Below, piece after piece: positions 22,426 through 32,848 of a stretch of 39,830 nt of DNA. Source of the DNA: Planctomycetota bacterium (GTDB lineage Bacteria; Planctomycetota; Phycisphaerae; Sedimentisphaerales; Anaerobacaceae); NCBI GenBank assembly GCA_022563885.1, contig JADFMM010000020.1, positions 1 to 39,830 of the forward strand, written 5' to 3'. A program made the position numbers and the translations under genes. Under the pieces are notes generated by a model, which saw only the letters and a list, made by a program, of their open reading frames with translations, was not told the DNA's origin and made no database searches. The stretch's first letter is position 1, and each line of letters opens with the position of its first letter.

Positions 22426-23196
22426 ATGCGAACGGCAAGATTGGGTGGACTCGTGCTTGCGTGCACTGGCGTGGCGTTCTTGTGCGGGTGTAGCAACCAA
22501 GAGCTGCAGATCATGAATCGGACGCAGCAGACCCGTATTGCGGACCTGGAGAGCGAGCTGCAGACGAAGATCCTCCTGCTCGAGCAGCGCGACCGCCAAC
22601 TCGCCACGGCTGCCGAAGAAGAAAATATCGAGGTCGAGCAGCTCAAGGGGCAAGTCGCGGCGTTGAAGGAAGACCTGGAAAGCAAGAAGACGATGATTTC
22701 GTCTATGCAGGAACGCCTGCTGAGCACAGGGGGGCAACTCCCTGTCGAGCTAACGAGCAAGTTGGAAGAGTTGGCCGGCAAGTACCACATGATCAGCTAC
22801 GACGCAGACCGTGGTGTGCTCAAATTCGAGAGCGACTTGACCTTTCAGAAGGGCAGTGATCAGGTGACGAGTTCTGCCATCGGCGGCGTTAAGTCCCTCT
22901 GTACCATCCTCAATTCGGCCGAAGCCGAGAAGTTTGACGTGATCATTGCAGGCCATACCGACGACATTCCGGTGCTTAGACCGGAGACCAGGGCCAAGCA
23001 TCCCACTAACTGGCATCTTTCCGCCCACCGGGCTATCTCCGTGCTAAACATCATGGCAGCGAACAATGTCGCCCCCAAACGGCTGAGCGTGCGTGGCTTT
23101 GGCGAATTCAGGCCCGTCGAGGAGAACAAACCCAATAAAGGGGGTAGCGCGAAGAACCGGCGTGTGGAGATCTACATCGTGCCCCAGGGCATGTGA
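22426..23196 (+). CDS. OmpA/MotB-domain peptidoglycan-associated lipoprotein
   Basis: The product is 256 residues. The leader ends in the lipobox LCGC with Cys22 lipidated. Residues about 25-100 are a charged coiled coil (IADLESELQTKILLLEQRDR and so on). Residues about 125-255 are an OmpA C-terminal domain with DVIIAGHTDDIP, WHLSAHRAISVLNIM, LSVRGFGEFRPVEEN and NRRVEIYIVPQ, the peptidoglycan-binding signature. It probably tethers the outer membrane to peptidoglycan. About 200 bases separate it from purQ, with a weak promoter-like TTGACG...TTTTAATG around 22274-22300. It overlaps the next gene by 4 bases (GTGA). Confidence 0.87.
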   Translation: MRTARLGGLVLACTGVAFLCGCSNQELQIMNRTQQTRIADLESELQTKILLLEQRDRQLATAAEEENIEVEQLKGQVAALKEDLESKKTMISSMQERLLSTGGQLPVELTSKLEELAGKYHMISYDADRGVLKFESDLTFQKGSDQVTSSAIGGVKSLCTILNSAEAEKFDVIIAGHTDDIPVLRPETRAKHPTNWHLSAHRAISVLNIMAANNVAPKRLSVRGFGEFRPVEENKPNKGGSAKNRRVEIYIVPQGM

Positions 23197-25674: not shown

Positions 25675-25809
25675 TGTCGAACCTACAGACGGGACTCGAT
25701 TTACAACTGTGCTGCTGAGGAGTGGTCGAACTAACCTGACGCGTGTGCGAGAATTTTTCCTGGCGCGCTGTAATCCCATATTTTAGAATGACTTACGTTG
25801 AGAACAACG

Positions 25810-25830
25810 TGAACATTCGTTCCTCCCGTT
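25810..25830 (+). repeat. Left terminal inverted repeat of the IS
   Basis: This 21-base arm is an exact complement of 28530-28550. It begins GTGAACATTCG at the outer edge and ends CTCCCGT inward. Confidence 0.93.
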
Positions 25831-25906
25831 AGTGCCTCTCAGTTTTTATCAGCATTTCTAAAGATTTCTCGGGACACGCTTCAAGGCCCCTGCTATAGTT
25901 GTCCCC

Positions 25907-27523
25907 ATGATAGCTATGGCACCAGAACATGGATGTCTGGATCGGCCGATAGGCCCAGTCAGCGAAGGACTCCATCTAGGGCAACTGCTCCAAGAGAATC
26001 GTGCGCTGTACTGTGAAAAAAACTACTACAGGAGCCTGCACGAAAAAGCTAAAACCCGAGAAGAACTGCTCAAGCAGGAGGTTCAACAACTCAAGGCACG
26101 AATCCGCTATCTGGAGCAAAAGCTTTATGGTCGTAATTCTGAGAAGAAGAACTCGAGCGAGAAAAACACCTCTTCGTCCAGTGATGACCCACCCAAAAAA
26201 GAGAGAGGTCAGCAGCCAGGCAGTCCTGGCCATGGACGCAGAGATTACAGCCACCTTCCGGTGGAAGAGGAGACTTATGAATTAGATCAAGCCGTCTGTC
26301 CTAAATGTCGCTGTCCTTTCCATGAGGATCCATTGCTGGGCACCGATGACTCCGAAACGATTGAGATAGAGGTCAAGGCGTATCGCCGCAAGGCCAGGCG
26401 AAAAAAATACAAGAAAACCTGTCAATGTGAGGGTGTCCCAGGCATTATCACCGCCCCGGGGCCGCCCAAGTTGATTAACAAGGGCAAATTGGGCATCTCT
26501 GTATGGGTTCACCTCTTACTGGAAAAGTATCTCTATCAGCGTCCGATCAATCGACTTTTGGAGTCGTTCAAGGATATTGAATACGAGGTGCCTCCAGGAA
26601 CAATCGGTGATGGCCTCAAAAAACTGGCACCCCTCTTTGAACCTGTTTTAAAGGAGATCATCAAAAAGAATCAAACCGAAAGACACCTCCATGCGGATGA
26701 GACCCGTTGGCTGGTCTTTGAATTCATAGAGGGCAAAAAGAGCTATCGTTGGTATATGTGGGTCTTTGTCTCGAAACAGACGGTGGTGTATATATTAGAC
26801 CCCAGTCGTGCGACGAGTGTCATTGAAAAACACTTGAACGTCGTCAGTGTATTGATCTTGAGTGTCGATCGTTATTCATCCTACAAATCCTTTGCCAAAG
26901 ACCGTGAGAATGTCATTCTGGCGTTCTGTTGGACTCACGTCAGAAGGGACTTTTTGACGAGCGCCAAGGGCTTTGATGAACTCGAAGCATGGGGTATGGC
27001 GTGGGTTGATTCTATTGGTGAGATCTTTCATCTGAATAATCAGCGGATGGCCCATGAGGTTGATTCGCCCGAGTTTGCCCAGGCCGATCAGTCCTTGCGT
27101 CAAGCGCTGGATGCCATGAAACAACAATTCGAGTTGGAATTAACCGAAGAGAATTTACATCCTGAAAGAGCCAAACGTTTGAACAGTATCAAAGCACATT
27201 GGGAGGGCTTGCTGGTCTTTGTGGATCATCCGTGGATTCCCATGGACAACAGTGAGGCCGAGAGACGAATGGTTACCGCGGCATTGGGACGAAAAAACTA
27301 CTACGGTTCCGGCTCAGTATGGAGCGGTCATTTTACCGCGAGCCTGTTTAGTATCTTTCAAACACTGAAGCTCTGGAAGATCAATCCCCGTAAATGGTTG
27401 ACCGAGTATTTACAGAAGTGCGCCGAAAACCATGGTCACTCCCCCAAAGACTTAGCCTGTTTCTTACCTTGGACCATGTCAAAAGAGCAGTTGGCTCGAT
27501 TCCAATATCCGGATACCTCATGA
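25907..27523 (+). CDS. IS66-family transposase (TnpC type)
   Basis: The product is 538 residues. The N-terminal leucine-zipper-like helix (about residues 40-75: LKQEVQQLKARIRYLEQKL) is followed by the conserved LYGRNSEKKN, a zinc-binding region with CPKCRCPF and CQCEGVPG (about residues 130-185), and the DDE domain. The catalytic residues can be placed at D264 (HADETRWLVF), D321 (LSVDRYSSYK) and E450 (DNSEAERRMVTAALGRKN). The tail ends in NPRKWLTEYLQKCAEN, as in intact TnpC. It catalyses cut-and-paste movement of the element. No clear Shine-Dalgarno precedes the ATG at 25907. The stop overlaps the DruA start. Confidence 0.93.
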   Translation: MIAMAPEHGCLDRPIGPVSEGLHLGQLLQENRALYCEKNYYRSLHEKAKTREELLKQEVQQLKARIRYLEQKLYGRNSEKKNSSEKNTSSSSDDPPKKERGQQPGSPGHGRRDYSHLPVEEETYELDQAVCPKCRCPFHEDPLLGTDDSETIEIEVKAYRRKARRKKYKKTCQCEGVPGIITAPGPPKLINKGKLGISVWVHLLLEKYLYQRPINRLLESFKDIEYEVPPGTIGDGLKKLAPLFEPVLKEIIKKNQTERHLHADETRWLVFEFIEGKKSYRWYMWVFVSKQTVVYILDPSRATSVIEKHLNVVSVLILSVDRYSSYKSFAKDRENVILAFCWTHVRRDFLTSAKGFDELEAWGMAWVDSIGEIFHLNNQRMAHEVDSPEFAQADQSLRQALDAMKQQFELELTEENLHPERAKRLNSIKAHWEGLLVFVDHPWIPMDNSEAERRMVTAALGRKNYYGSGSVWSGHFTASLFSIFQTLKLWKINPRKWLTEYLQKCAENHGHSPKDLACFLPWTMSKEQLARFQYPDTS

Positions 27524-28398
27524 AGGCCGCCAGTCCATCCTATCGCTATTGTGGCCGGGACTTCTCTGGAACAGAATTGGAGAAGGTACGTCAAATCATC
27601 GCCTCAGACGATCGCCCTAATCGTGTAAAGATCTCTCGGCGTGTGTGTGAGGCCATGGGATGGACCAAGCCAGACGGCGGCCTCAAGGAGATGAGCTGTC
27701 GGGTCGCGTTACTCCGCATGGAACGTGATGGTCTGCTCCGGTTGCCACCGCCTCAAAAAGGCAACGGCAATCGCACGGCCAAAGTCCGCATCAGCCGTGC
27801 CTCTGATCCGAAGCCTGATGTCTGCGTTGGGGCGGGTGCCTTGGGACCATTAAGGCTTGAGCTAGTCGTTAAGGGCACCACCTCCGGACTATGGAACGAA
27901 TTGATAGAGCGCTATCATTACCTGGGCCATAAGCCGTTACCCGGTGCTCAACTGCGTTATTTTGTTTATGGGGGTTCTCGTCTTCTGGCCACGCTTGGCT
28001 TTGGGGCTTCGGCCTGGAGCGTGGCAGGTCGAGATCGCATGATCGGTTGGACTGCTGAGCAGCGCAAAAGCAATCTGCATCTCATCGTTAACAATGCCCG
28101 GTTTCTAATCCTCCCCTGGATTAAGTCCCGAAATCTGGCCTCTAAGATATTATCATTAGCCTGTAAACAGATACGGCAAGATTGGTACACCCGATACCAC
28201 TATTGCCCTGTATTACTGGAGACTTTTGTTGAGATTGATCGCTTTACAGGGACCTGCTACCGAGCCGCCAACTGGCAGCAAGTCGGCATTACGCAAGGCC
28301 GTGGCAAGCTAGAAAAATCAGTGCACGGCACATTACCCAAGAAATACGTTCTGGTTTATCCTCTCGTCAAAGACTTCAAAGAGCAACTCTGTTGTTAA
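27520..28398 (+). CDS. DruA-family (DUF4338) protein carried by the IS
   Basis: The product is 292 residues from an ATG overlapping the transposase stop (ATGA); the frame is open further upstream but inside tnpC. Residues about 10-80 look like a winged-helix-type DNA-binding part (ISRRVCEAMGWTKPDGGLKE, then MERDGLLRLPPPQ). Residues about 105-285 match the DUF4338/DruA domain: LIERYHYLGHKPLPGAQLRY, GRDRMIGWTAEQRKSNLHLI, NNARFLILPWIKSRNLASKI, PVLLETFVE, FTGTCYRAANWQQVGITQGR. DruA was named from the Druantia anti-phage system, where its biochemical role is unclear. The other Druantia genes are absent. Lying inside the inverted repeats and coupled to the transposase, it is more likely an element-borne accessory (targeting, regulation or immunity) than part of a host defence island. 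Confidence 0.85.
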   Translation: MKAASPSYRYCGRDFSGTELEKVRQIIASDDRPNRVKISRRVCEAMGWTKPDGGLKEMSCRVALLRMERDGLLRLPPPQKGNGNRTAKVRISRASDPKPDVCVGAGALGPLRLELVVKGTTSGLWNELIERYHYLGHKPLPGAQLRYFVYGGSRLLATLGFGASAWSVAGRDRMIGWTAEQRKSNLHLIVNNARFLILPWIKSRNLASKILSLACKQIRQDWYTRYHYCPVLLETFVEIDRFTGTCYRAANWQQVGITQGRGKLEKSVHGTLPKKYVLVYPLVKDFKEQLCC

Positions 28399-28484
28399 TC
28401 CATTTATCCCTGGCATAGACGTCCTTACGGGACGACCCACCCACTGCGTGAGTTCTTCATCAGCCTAGAGCCCCCCCTGTTGCC

Positions 28485-28504
28485 TTTGACATCATGATGT
28501 CAAA
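28485..28504. promoter_or_regulatory. Perfect 20-bp palindrome near the right end of the IS
   Basis: TTTGACATCATGATGTCAAA equals its own reverse complement. It lies between the DruA stop and the right inverted repeat. It could bind a dimeric protein encoded by the element or act as part of a transcription stop. A second short hairpin (CGTCC/GGACG) lies just after the DruA gene near 28419-28433. Confidence 0.6.
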
Positions 28505-28529
28505 ACGCTAAAAAAGTAGCCCGCGACAT

Positions 28530-28550
28530 ACGGGAGGAACGAATGTTCAC
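28530..28550 (-). repeat. Right terminal inverted repeat of the IS
   Basis: Exact complement of 25810-25830; together they define the element's ends. Confidence 0.93.
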
Positions 28551-28799
28551 AAGAGGGGGATCTTAAGTTGAGGTAGGCCAATGGCTTAGAAAATATAACC
28601 GTAGTTCGACACTATACAAAACTTCGGTCTAGCGGATGCCAATGGCGCCGAATCGCCAAATCCCATTGGCGACCTGTCTCACAGGCGCATGAAGCACTGA
28701 CCGACCGTCAGTAGCAGGGTCCAGATGCGTATGAACCAGCCCTTCGGAAGAGTCGGTGCCTGTTCTTGAAACGTCCAGGAAATATAATAGAAAAGCAGG
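28551..28799. other. Spacer after the IS, no clear gene
   Basis: There is an 8-bp hairpin stem GCCAATGG/CCATTGGC. On the minus strand a frame without a good start reads LFYYISWTFQEQAPTLPKGW and ends CFMRL; it looks protein-like and may be the end of a gene cut by the insertion, but no family is recognised. Confidence 0.35.
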
Positions 28800-29030: not shown

Positions 29031-29225
29031 GTGGAAGTGCTCGCACAGTGGATCATGAGTCTGGCAACAGGGCGCGGGCAACGCGCCCGTGCTCCGTCCT
29101 GTAAAGAGCCACACACGCTCTGCTATCTCGATGTTTTTCAGACAGCCCCGTTGTTGGCGCAGACGGGGGTAGCTGATCCTCTCACCCCGTCACTCACTCA
29201 ACAGACAGCCTCTTCCCTGCCATGA
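29031..29225 (+). CDS. Possible leader peptide coupled to the first WecA-like gene
   Basis: A GTG at 29031 follows a strong GAGGAGGAG ribosome site by a few bases and opens a 64-codon frame. Its stop overlaps the ATG of the transferase gene (ATGA). The transferase ATG itself has no Shine-Dalgarno, so its translation may depend on this frame. The peptide (starting VEVLAQWIMSLATGRG) has no family match I know. A GC hairpin at 29070-29088 (GGGCGCG/CGCGCCC, loop GGCAA) falls inside it. The case rests on ribosome-site geometry only. Confidence 0.4.
   Translation: MEVLAQWIMSLATGRGQRARAPSCKEPHTLCYLDVFQTAPLLAQTGVADPLTPSLTQQTASSLP
29070..29088 (+). other. GC-rich hairpin in the leader
   Basis: Perfect 7-bp stem GGGCGCG/CGCGCCC with a five-base loop, no following T run, so not a simple terminator. 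It may act in folding of the leader of the first WecA-like gene. Confidence 0.6.
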
Positions 29226-30748
29226 AAACGTATTTGTTCACATACTGCCTATCCCTCCTGCTGGCCTCTGCCATGACACCGATTGTCATTCTGTGGGCGC
29301 GAAGGAGAGGACTCGTAGACAAGCCTGCTGCCCGGAAGATCCACACTCTGGCGATACCCCGGGTGGGGGGAATTGCGATCTTTCTGGGGGCCATGTTGGC
29401 CATCCTGCCGGTACTCGCAATGCGGAATCAAGTTGGAGCTGAATTCAGGGAAGTGATGCCCCAGGTGGTGGTCCTGCTCTTGTGTTCTTCGGCTCTCTTC
29501 ATTGTGGGACTATATGACGACCTGAAAAGGCTGCGCATTCGTACGAAACTACTGGTCCAAGGTGTGGGGGCGGTTCTGGTCTGTCTTGCCGGCGTTCGCA
29601 TAGAAGAGATTGTCGTCAGAGATCTTTTCACGCTTGAGCTGGGCAATTTTGGAATCATCGTGACCATCCTCTGGATCATCGGCATCACCAATGCTGTCAA
29701 CCTGATCGACGGCCTGGACGGATTGGCGGCCGGCATCTCAGGGATTGCCAGCGCCGTGATAGCGGTACTGGCGCTTTGGCAGGGGAATGCCGTTCTTGCC
29801 GTGGTCATGCTTGCCCTGTGCGGGTCACTCACCGGATTTCTGTTCTTTAATTTTCATCCGGCCAAGATCTTCATGGGAGATAGTGGCAGTCTGTTTCTAG
29901 GATTCATCCTAGCGGTCTCTTCTGTCATGACGGCCGCCAAATCAGAGGCCCTGGTTGGGACCTGCCTGCCGATCATTGTCCTTGGGATCCCCATCTTTGA
30001 CACCTTCTTCAGCGTGCTGAGACGCTACCTGGATCGAAGAGGTATCATGTCGCCGGATAGGGGCCATTTTCATCATGTGCTCTTGAAGCGGGGCCTAAAG
30101 CAACATCATGTCGCCATGCTCGCCTACGCTATCACGGCCCTCGTATCAGGCCTGGGTTTCGTTATGATATGGACCCGGAGCACCGCATCCTTGTTGGTGT
30201 TCCTTCTGTGTCTGGCATTAATCCTAATGGTCTTTAAGGAAATAGGATCCACAAGTTTTCGGCGCGCGTGTGAGGTAATCCGCGAAAGAGCCGGCATCGC
30301 CTATGCGCAACGCATGGAACAGAAAAGCTTTGAAGAGGCCCGTCTGAGCTTCAACAATGCCGAGACCTTTGAACAATGGTGGCAAAGCCTAATGAAAGCG
30401 GGCAGCTCCTTGGACTGCACCAGCATCGCACTGAGCCTGGAGACCCGCAACGGGCATCCTCGCCTCTTCGTTTGGCACCGTGAGAAAACCGGGATCAAGC
30501 CCGTTGGCGAAGAGGAGTTGATCCACCTCAGGATTCCCGTGCGAGATCGGCGTAAGGGTGGCCTGGGCCGTATCGAGGTCGCGATTCCCGCTCATAAACA
30601 ATCTATCGAAAGCGCGGGCCGACGTGGGGCTCTCTTCACACGACTAATAGAGGAACACGGGCTCGAAACATTGGCAGAAGGTTTAAAGAGCACGGCAAAA
30701 AAAGCAGATGAAATGAAGACTATTGATGATAAACTGGCCTACCCCTAG
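29222..30748 (+). CDS. WecA/MraY-like sugar-phosphate transferase, copy 1
   Basis: This 508-residue membrane protein is of the polyprenyl-phosphate GlcNAc/GalNAc-1-phosphate transferase family (WecA/TagO/MraY-like). It would start lipid-linked glycan synthesis by adding a sugar phosphate to undecaprenyl phosphate at the inner membrane. About ten membrane helices fill residues 1-345. Active-site motifs are LYDDLK (D99, D100), NAVNLIDGLDGLAAG (D163), FFNFHPAKIFMGDSGSLFLG (D220) and the histidine loop MSPDRGHFHHVLLKRG. The tail of about 160 residues after the last helix (ARLSFNNAETFEQWWQ..., RIPVRDRR, ESAGRRGALFTRLIEEH) is not part of ordinary WecA and recurs in the two sister genes. No Shine-Dalgarno is seen at its ATG. 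Confidence 0.88.
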   Translation: MKTYLFTYCLSLLLASAMTPIVILWARRRGLVDKPAARKIHTLAIPRVGGIAIFLGAMLAILPVLAMRNQVGAEFREVMPQVVVLLLCSSALFIVGLYDDLKRLRIRTKLLVQGVGAVLVCLAGVRIEEIVVRDLFTLELGNFGIIVTILWIIGITNAVNLIDGLDGLAAGISGIASAVIAVLALWQGNAVLAVVMLALCGSLTGFLFFNFHPAKIFMGDSGSLFLGFILAVSSVMTAAKSEALVGTCLPIIVLGIPIFDTFFSVLRRYLDRRGIMSPDRGHFHHVLLKRGLKQHHVAMLAYAITALVSGLGFVMIWTRSTASLLVFLLCLALILMVFKEIGSTSFRRACEVIRERAGIAYAQRMEQKSFEEARLSFNNAETFEQWWQSLMKAGSSLDCTSIALSLETRNGHPRLFVWHREKTGIKPVGEEELIHLRIPVRDRRKGGLGRIEVAIPAHKQSIESAGRRGALFTRLIEEHGLETLAEGLKSTAKKADEMKTIDDKLAYP

Positions 30749-30958: not shown

Positions 30959-31249
30959 CTTAGGCTTAAAAGGTAAAAGAGGGACGAGCCTACGAGCGAG
31001 GCGGAGACATCCAACGTTGGTGAACTGTACGGTAGAGGTCTAATCGTCCGTGTCACACCAGCGAAGGGAAGGAAGAGTCTCGGAGAAGGGAACTCCTCTG
31101 TGGCTGCGGCCAGAAAATGGGTAGTATACCCACGGGCACGGAGTGCGCGCTAAGGCTTTTGGGTGTTCGGGCGCTGACGCTCTTCGGATTTGGCCAGCGC
31201 CGAACACCAAACTGCGAAAAGCGAAGCGCCCGAATGCCTGTTTTTAACC
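30959..31249 (+). promoter_or_regulatory. Long structured leader of the second WecA-like gene
   Basis: The leader of about 290 bases contains several pairing segments (for example CGGAGAAGGGAACTCC). Near its 3' end is a strong hairpin: 31158-31176 pairs with 31195-31211 over 17 base pairs with two bulged G bases. Immediately after comes a dispersed repeat unit (31200-31232) that recurs inside the downstream coding region. No known riboswitch class was recognised, and no Shine-Dalgarno precedes the ATG at 31250. Confidence 0.45.
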
Positions 31250-32848
31250 ATGACAACCTACCTCTTCACCTACGCACTAGCCTTGCTCCTATCCACGGCC
31301 TTGACCCCTGTCGTCATAGCCTGGGCGCAAAGGAGCAAGTTGGTCGACAAACCTGACGCCCGGAAAATCCACACGCGTGCCATCGCCAGAGTAGGCGGGA
31401 TTGCCATTTTTCTAGGCGCCATGTTGGCCATCCTGCCGGCGCTGGCAATCAACAACTCCGTGGGCAGTGCGCTGCGTCAGTTGGGCCCCAAGATTTCGGC
31501 CCTCCTCGTCGTGTCGACGCTTATGTTTCTGGTGGGACTATATGACGACCTAAAGGGAATAGGAGCGAAGAAAAAGCTCGCCGCACAGTGCCTGTGCGCG
31601 GGCCTTGTCTGTCTAGCGGGGATCTGCGTCGATGCCATTCATATCCGAGACCTGGGAACGCTTCAATTAGGCTGGTTGGGTTACCCCATAACCATTTTAT
31701 GGATTGTAGGCGTGACCAACGCCATTAACCTGATAGATGGCTTGGATGGTCTCGCGGCAGGCATATGCGGCATCGCCTGTGCCGTGATGGCGATGCTCGC
31801 CATGTGGCAGGGCAATGTTGTCCTGGCAGTGGTAATGCTTGCCCTGTTCGGCGCCTTAACTGGATTTCTGTTCTTCAACTTCCATCCCGCCAAGATATTC
31901 ATGGGAGACTGCGGCAGCCTGTTCTTAGGCTTTCTGATTGCCACATCATCCGTGCTCACGGCGTCCAAGGCCGAGGCCCTGGTGGGGATTGCGTTGCCCA
32001 TGCTTGTCCTGGGCATACCCATTTTCGATACACTGCTAAGCATCGTGAGGAGACTTCTGGCTCGACACGGCATCATGTCTCCAGACAGCAGCCATTTTCA
32101 CCACGTATTACTGAGGCGAGGTCTACGCCAACACCACGTTGCGATCATTGCCTACGGTATTACCCTGTTGGTCTCTGGCTTTGGCCTGTTCATGATGCTC
32201 ACGAGGAGCACCTTTTCCATCTTGGTTCTTGTTTTCAGTCTTGCGCTCCTACTGACGGCTCTCAGAATCACAGGCGTAGTGCAGGTGAAAGAAACTCTCG
32301 AGCGAACGCGAAAACGAATCTGGCTATTGCACCAGCAACACCTCGAACGTCGAAGCTTCGAAAAGGCGCGGCTCAGCTTCCACGACGCGCAAACTTTCGA
32401 CCAGTGGTGGGAATGCATGTGCAAAGCAGCCAAGGCCCTCGATCTCACCCGCCTCTCGCTAGAGATGGCAAACCAAGAGTCGGCTCGACAGTCGAAATCC
32501 CAAAAAGCGAGAAGCGTCGCGTCCGAACACCGAATCGCGAAAAGCGCAGCGCCCGGCTTCTGCTGGAAAAACGGTCACACCGATGACGAGATGCCAACTG
32601 AAGACGTGCTGCGAATGACGTTTCCAGTCAACGGTCACCCGCGAGGAGACGCGCAGTACTTCAAAATTGATATCGTGACCAATGGTTCACTGGAGTCTGC
32701 TGGCCGAAGAGCGGCGTTGTTTGCCCGATTGGCGAGCGAGAATCAGTTCGATAGCCCAACTCCCGAAAACCAAAAAGCAGCGATTCGCGATTCGGTCAGT
32801 GGGCATTCGGCGCGAGTCGAAACCGAACACCCGAATACCGAAGAGTGA
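31250..32848 (+). CDS. WecA/MraY-like sugar-phosphate transferase, copy 2
   Basis: The product is 532 residues, clearly a paralogue of copy 1 throughout the membrane part: LYDDLKGIG, NAINLIDGLDGLAAG, FFNFHPAKIFMGDCGSLFLG, MSPDSSHFHHVLLRRG. One difference is Cys for Ser after the MGD aspartate. The soluble tail is also shared (ARLSFHDAQTFDQWWE, ESAGRRAALFARLASEN). Within it lies an extra low-complexity stretch encoded by a dispersed DNA repeat (QKARSVASEHRIAKSAAPGF), and the C-terminal end (about the last 20 residues) is also repeat-like. The in-frame start is uncertain because no ribosome site is visible; the ATG at 31250 gives the N-terminus that matches copy 1 (MxTYLFTYxLxLLL). Confidence 0.86.
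   Translation: MTTYLFTYALALLLSTALTPVVIAWAQRSKLVDKPDARKIHTRAIARVGGIAIFLGAMLAILPALAINNSVGSALRQLGPKISALLVVSTLMFLVGLYDDLKGIGAKKKLAAQCLCAGLVCLAGICVDAIHIRDLGTLQLGWLGYPITILWIVGVTNAINLIDGLDGLAAGICGIACAVMAMLAMWQGNVVLAVVMLALFGALTGFLFFNFHPAKIFMGDCGSLFLGFLIATSSVLTASKAEALVGIALPMLVLGIPIFDTLLSIVRRLLARHGIMSPDSSHFHHVLLRRGLRQHHVAIIAYGITLLVSGFGLFMMLTRSTFSILVLVFSLALLLTALRITGVVQVKETLERTRKRIWLLHQQHLERRSFEKARLSFHDAQTFDQWWECMCKAAKALDLTRLSLEMANQESARQSKSQKARSVASEHRIAKSAAPGFCWKNGHTDDEMPTEDVLRMTFPVNGHPRGDAQYFKIDIVTNGSLESAGRRAALFARLASENQFDSPTPENQKAAIRDSVSGHSARVETEHPNTEE
32523..32555 (+). repeat. Dispersed repeat unit inside a coding sequence
   Basis: This 33-base unit matches the leader unit at 31200-31232 at 29 of 33 positions (CCGAACACC...CGAAAAGCG.AGCGCCCG). 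A shorter copy is at 32862-32892. Here it is in frame in the tail of the second WecA-like gene. Confidence 0.7.

Follow-up and report, generated by a model that had tools for sequence, protein, structure and literature searches.

A distinct group of DruA (DUF4338) proteins is constantly associated with transposases of several unrelated families, and the nearest relative of these proteins with a solved structure is a DNA-modifying enzyme. We describe this partnership starting from a two-gene insertion sequence in a 39,830-nucleotide stretch of a Planctomycetota genome (contig JADFMM010000020.1, positions 1–39,830, forward strand; hereafter called "the window"). The obligate partnership of DruA with the transposase is well supported. 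On the basis of the predicted fold of DruA, we propose, at what we judge to be even chances, that the element supplies a Mom-like transposition cofactor of its own, which would modify DNA or at the least transfer acyl groups.

Structure of the element

The element spans positions 25809–28550 of the window (2742 bp). The first-pass annotation of this DNA had the right end at 28550, which holds, and the start at 25810 with a length of 2741 bp, which are corrected here. The terminal inverted repeats are 21 nt long and 100% complementary, with the left repeat at 25809–25829 on the forward strand (GTGAACATTCGTTCCTCCCGT) and the right repeat at 28530–28550 on the reverse strand (ACGGGAGGAACGAATGTTCAC). 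They form the longest perfect inverted pair in a 3.4-kb stretch, in which the other pairs measure 12–14 nt. As annotated earlier, the perfect repeats enclose exactly two genes, joined by an ATGA overlap, and neither tnpA nor tnpB is present between them. The tnpC gene (25907–27523, forward strand) encodes an IS66-family DDE transposase of 538 residues. The druA/DUF4338 gene (27520–28398, forward strand) encodes a protein of 292 residues with a predicted winged-helix-like N-terminus and a GNAT domain, and the stop codon of tnpC and the start codon of druA share the ATGA at 27520–27523 (forward strand), which couples the two genes.

The inverted repeats of the window element begin with GTGAACATTCG, and the ends of its relatives with GTAAATATTCGG. 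The left end is of the same GTAA.TATTC. type as the ends of the relatives that have 8-bp target duplications. In the same genome, the match of one partial copy (C194) starts at window base 25808/25809 and those of two others (C95 and C5) end at 28550, these copies being located at contig ends. In addition, uninterrupted copies of a repeat in the right flank pick up exactly at window base 28551. The borders of the element are confirmed, because the partial copies start and stop at the ends of the inverted repeats and the flanking repeat continues at 28551.

No target duplication borders the window copy (AGAACAAC and AAGAGGGG compared). Its right flank begins inside the dispersed repeat, a piece of which occupies 28551–28617 (uninterrupted copies lie at G000:C265 and, in a genome of the same genus, at G998:C798). 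The other half of this repeat is missing on the left, and the two flanks therefore derive from different sites. This could reflect recombination between copies or, equally, an assembly join made across a multicopy repeat. The flanking genes are housekeeping genes, encoding an aminotransferase, purine-synthesis enzymes and glycosyltransferases. Two neighbouring Glycos_transf_4 (WecA-like) genes, at 29222–30748 and 31190–32848, are 68% identical in DNA, and a further copy at G000:C367 is 87% identical.

TnpC is an IS66-family transposase

TnpC matches the Pfam model PF03050 with 172.1 bits (E 2e-50; cut-off 23.1 bits) and NF033517 with 259 bits (cut-off 180). The DDE triad, Asp264, Asp321 and Glu452, is invariant across 14 TnpC relatives, which bears out the earlier description of the triad as intact, and cysteines 131, 134, 172 and 174 are likewise invariant in these relatives. 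The element has the DDE_Tnp_IS66 domain above the curated cut-off, the DDE triad and the terminal inverted repeats of the IS66 family. The 8-bp target duplication of this family is present in the relatives L019–L022, L213 and L215 and absent from the window copy, and the canonical tnpA and tnpB genes are lacking. This lack leaves membership in the IS66 family at large intact, since there is a tnpC-only subgroup (ISBst12-like), which we take to be the closest known type of insertion sequence.

tnpC and druA move as one unit

The first-pass annotation had proposed looking for further copies of the unit, and such copies are found in related genomes. In a complete Acididesulfobacillus genome, two tnpC>druA copies (L020 and L022) are 100% identical over 2714 bp and have different 8-bp duplications. 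Three Acididesulfobacillus copies, these two among them, are bordered by the exact 8-bp duplications TTATTACT, GGTAACGG and CCTAGAAA; A. acetoxydans has four copies in all. Another locus with tnpC followed by druA and with similar ends (L019) has the exact 8-bp duplication TATAGCTC, and copies in Arenicellales have aactagtg and acagaatt; 8-bp duplications are likewise observed at L019, L021, L213 and L215. In several other relatives the ends are recognisable and the duplication is absent. Units with the reversed order, druA>tnpC, are also multicopy. At L062, TCTCGCAA is located on both sides if the repeat is taken to start at GTGTCACTT, the exact border being an inferred one. Overall, tnpC and druA move as one unit. 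The DruA protein gave no tblastn match in phages, and matches in plasmids are confined to two records.

druA is a constant part of the unit

How often does this transposase occur without DruA? We searched 593 genomes of two phyla with TnpC only, and then scanned for DruA nearby. DruA adjoins every intact-ended TnpC match of approximately 35% identity or more, and the sole high-identity match without DruA is a fragment cut by a contig end. In two surveys, no DruA was found beside TnpC matches of 22–30% identity. In a tree of 111 TnpC proteins, those encoded in the order tnpC>druA form one clade of 30 rows with a support of 100. druA accompanies every intact member of this clade and none of approximately 40 ordinary IS66 TnpCs; in the single row that lacks a neighbouring druA, the copy has been split by another insertion. 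The proteins of druA>tnpC units fall mainly into two further groups, with the DruA-less TnpCs apart. The DruA labels change only 6 times on this tree, as compared to a mean of 52 after shuffling; it is a quick tree with long branches, in which the deep joins are unsure and the clustering is not. The same transposase with the same ends and no DruA gene, which had been named earlier as an argument for chance adjacency, has no intact case in the clade.

The junction is also conserved, with the start codon of druA overlapping the stop codon of tnpC in most of the tnpC>druA loci listed. Both genes are under purifying selection, and druA (dN/dS 0.15–0.17) is no more weakly constrained than tnpC (0.17–0.19). 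We conclude that druA is very probably an obligate part of the transposition unit. A role in transposition, one of the two suggestions made at first for the DruA gene, is favoured because the gene is translationally coupled and obligate in a mobile unit.

DruA resembles phage Mu Mom

The window DruA matches PF14236 with 164 bits (E 4.5e-48). Its AF2 model (mean pLDDT 91) consists of a winged-helix-like N-terminus, approximately residues 7–70, and a GNAT domain, approximately residues 106–292. The N-terminal part is a three-helix structure, with weak winged-helix-like matches in the fold search (Z up to 5.6). In a Foldseek search of all PDB chains, the best match of the model was phage Mu Mom (8bv8). 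Mom also ranked first when Foldseek's top 1000 were aligned with VIA-align, with a Z score of 15.3 over 167 residues at 19% identity, as compared to 12.6 for the next entry. Hundreds of PDB chains exceed a Z score of 8, and among the matches listed nearly all are GNATs. The predicted fold of the window DruA is, in all likelihood, GNAT/Mom-like.

The likeness extends to the sequence profiles. In nine of the ten DruA proteins scanned, Mom ranks second among the Pfam families, in each case below the cut-off of PF25680 (27.1 bits; best relatives 26.1–26.8 bits). The window protein alone scores 18.3 bits against this cut-off, which counts against the Mom-like reading. Comparison of the DruA profile with Mom by hhalign, with the Mu Mom sequence taken from the phage Mu record, gave 94.8% over 162 columns. 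His133, Arg194, Ser208, Tyr247, Ala249 and Asn251 are identical in all 64 of the DruA sequences compared, and all six have conserved equivalents in Mom, where the serine position is Ser or Thr. In the same alignment, Ser208 corresponds to the serine that is replaced with alanine in 8bv8, an entry titled as the inactive mutant S124A. The equivalent of Mom Asp139 is Asp or Glu in DruA, and is not invariant. Neither the DruA profile nor the single protein gave a meaningful match when searched by sequence against PDB chains, and the profile misses Mom.

In DndF proteins, DUF4338 has previously been described as a GNAT domain (PMC10853773). This is one of three papers that mention DUF4338 in our literature search, which covered mainly open-access papers. 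The search found neither a Mom link nor a transposon link of DUF4338, no paper with both IS66 and DruA, and none combining Druantia, acetyltransferase and Mom.

DruA is associated with several kinds of transposases

The first-pass annotation also proposed tabulating the neighbourhoods of DUF4338 genes. We surveyed 990 genomes of three phyla with PF14236 and classified the neighbours by profiles built in this analysis. Among 88 distinct transposon-type DruA genes, 71 are fused to a transposase-like gene or lie within 400 bases of one in the same orientation; some of the other 17 are located at fragment ends. The partners are of six kinds: IS66, Tn5-like (PF14706+PF02281), other IS4-like (PF01609), ISAs1-like (PF13808), DDE_5 (PF13546) and UPF0236, the last seen once; a single further partner could be assigned to no kind. 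Fusions were found to Tn5-like, IS4-like, DDE_5 and ISAs1-like transposases, and also to TnpC, as in L013:368-2794, where TnpC and DruA form a single continuous reading frame. The DruA tree clusters by transposase partner, with 34 label changes as compared to 110 after shuffling.

On the 4.42-Mb Arenicellales chromosome OY282380.1 (G394; L213–L232), there are 52 matches to the DruA domain. DruA-bearing insertion sequences form four multicopy families there, each with its own target duplications: IS66 with a separate druA (2.8 kb, 8-bp duplications), DruA-IS4-like (2.5 kb, 10 bp), DruA-Tn5-like (2.4 kb, 8 bp) and DruA-ISAs1-like (2.1 kb, 9 bp). One Tn5-like DruA copy is nested in an ISAs1-like copy, for which the intact ISAs1-like copies provide the matching empty site. 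Elsewhere, L048:3034-4088 is a DruA-only unit between IS66-type ends, in which tnpC is missing and the druA frame is intact. From these distributions, transposon-type DruA seems to belong to the general machinery of transposons, rather than being a stray passenger.

The DruA proteins at L037 and L038 are approximately 440 residues long; an internal insert or duplication breaks their profile match, and no transposase was recognised in their neighbourhoods. At L271, L272, L278 and L280, the PF14236 matches are split within frames of 702–1297 residues, possibly representing other DruA or DndF-type architectures.

Relation to Druantia DruA

DruA is known from Druantia defence, and the window protein was initially named by analogy with it. 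The analogy is not supported. Against the PADLOC DruA model, the window DruA reaches 16.8 bits, as compared to 268–596 bits for the long-form DruA proteins, which include L129 (beside DruE) and L130 (beside DruD). It belongs to a separate branch and retains the Mom-like residues, whereas in the long form the Mom-like Ser, His and YxAxN residues are absent and LGGK takes the place of the LASK of the IS-borne protein. The Druantia partners DruB–DruE had no PADLOC match among the ten proteins flanking the element. We rejected Druantia membership of the window DruA on these grounds, and surveys of defence systems should avoid scoring DUF4338 genes as Druantia. The sole PADLOC match among the ten neighbours is a MotB/OmpA-like protein (22426–23196; ZorB, 57.6 bits), probably an ordinary envelope protein.

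In profile comparisons, IS-borne DruA matches Mom at 94.8% and Druantia DruA at 97.3%, while Mom and Druantia DruA fail to find each other (0.2%). This bridging position of IS-borne DruA agrees with an ancestral transposon setting and falls short of establishing it, the tree being unrooted.

Proposed mechanism and alternatives

We propose the following mechanism, in which we infer that DruA is catalytic, that it acts on DNA and that its action affects transposition. The unit would be an autonomous IS66-type insertion sequence with two genes, in which TnpC cuts and joins the ends. DruA, made from the coupled start, would be a GNAT enzyme resembling Mom, equipped with a DNA-binding-like head of its own, and would work with the transposase. 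It would most likely put a small acyl-type group on bases at or near the element ends or the target, either within the transposition complex or immediately after it. The resulting mark on, or protection of, the element DNA may control or favour transposition. There are precedents for both effects: host Dam methylation controls the transposition of Tn5 and Tn10, and Mom, which acts on adenines, protects Mu. Base modification as the activity of DruA, as suggested by the modelled fold, falls in our estimate just short of an even chance. GNAT folds acylate many substrates, so the fold alone does not give the substrate, and a chromosomal insertion sequence, unlike Mu, has no obvious need of protection from restriction.

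An alternative is that DruA is a non-catalytic, DNA-binding cofactor, whose head and GNAT-shaped body recognise the ends or the target and replace TnpA and TnpB. The predicted winged-helix-like N-terminus and the absence of tnpA and tnpB would suit such a role, and the fusions suggest that DruA and the transposase act in the same complex. This role sits poorly with six residues that are identical in 64 of 64 DruA proteins and common to Mom, and with the ISAs1-type fusions (family D), which appear to be headless and to keep the GNAT part; we consider it unlikely, though worth keeping in view. DruA might instead acylate a protein, such as the transposase or a host nucleoid or replication protein, and so regulate transposition. 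Many protein acetyltransferases are among the structural matches of its GNAT domain, and regulation in cis would fit with the tight coupling and the fusions to transposases. The best GNAT match by both structure and profile is nevertheless a DNA-modifying enzyme, and we regard protein acylation as quite unlikely.

The remaining alternatives detach druA from transposition. It could be an element-borne immunity or passenger gene that benefits the host or the element, with transposition independent of it, as its family name and the intact gene of the DruA-only derivative L048 might suggest. Immunity had been the other early suggestion, and it finds no support in surroundings that are housekeeping in nature and devoid of Druantia partners. 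Moreover, the obligate presence of druA, its conserved overlap and its fusions into the transposase polypeptide itself oppose a dispensable role, and we regard this explanation as very unlikely. The idea that an IS66 transposase and a DruA gene came to lie between these repeats by chance could appeal to the missing target duplication of the window copy. It was rejected in view of the whole-unit copies with target duplications in other genomes, the clade-wide pairing and the conserved junction, which leave it a vanishingly small probability.

If DruA modifies DNA, then base modification would be a step that transposons bring with them; to our knowledge, the control of transposons by base modification is so far known mainly from host Dam methylation. 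More broadly, we tentatively suggest, against the balance of probability, that self-modifying transposons are widespread: a Mom-like base modifier, coupled or fused to several DDE transposases, would mark or protect element or target DNA within the transposition complex, and Druantia DruA would be a relative in which the Mom-like residues were lost.

Comparison with known systems

The element shares with the tnpC-only IS66 subgroup (ISBst12-like) a TnpC with the DDE triad, the IS66 motifs, the absence of tnpA and tnpB, the GTAA/GTGA-type ends and, in its relatives, the 8-bp duplications. It differs from this subgroup in the addition of an obligate, translationally coupled gene for a DruA/Mom-like GNAT protein. 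Elements of the IS1595 type also have an extra gene inside their ends, and acetyltransferase genes are among these passengers. Such cargo is variable and dispensable, whereas the clade of the window element keeps one constant gene, relatives of which are fused to other transposases.

Druantia DruA (PADLOC DruA1, the long form of PF14236) has in common with the window DruA a GNAT-like core, the RDxxIGW motif and the profile match of 97.3%. In contrast, it forms a separate deep branch, is approximately 390–420 residues long and is seen beside DruD or DruE. Phage Mu Mom (PF25680, 8bv8) shares the GNAT-type fold and the equivalent His, Arg, Ser, Tyr, Ala and Asn residues, and it is also encoded by a transposing element. 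The two proteins are only 19% identical over the 167 aligned residues, with the window DruA below the Pfam cut-off for Mom, and DruA differs further in its extra DNA-binding-like domain at the N-terminus and in an RD..IGW stretch that is invariant.
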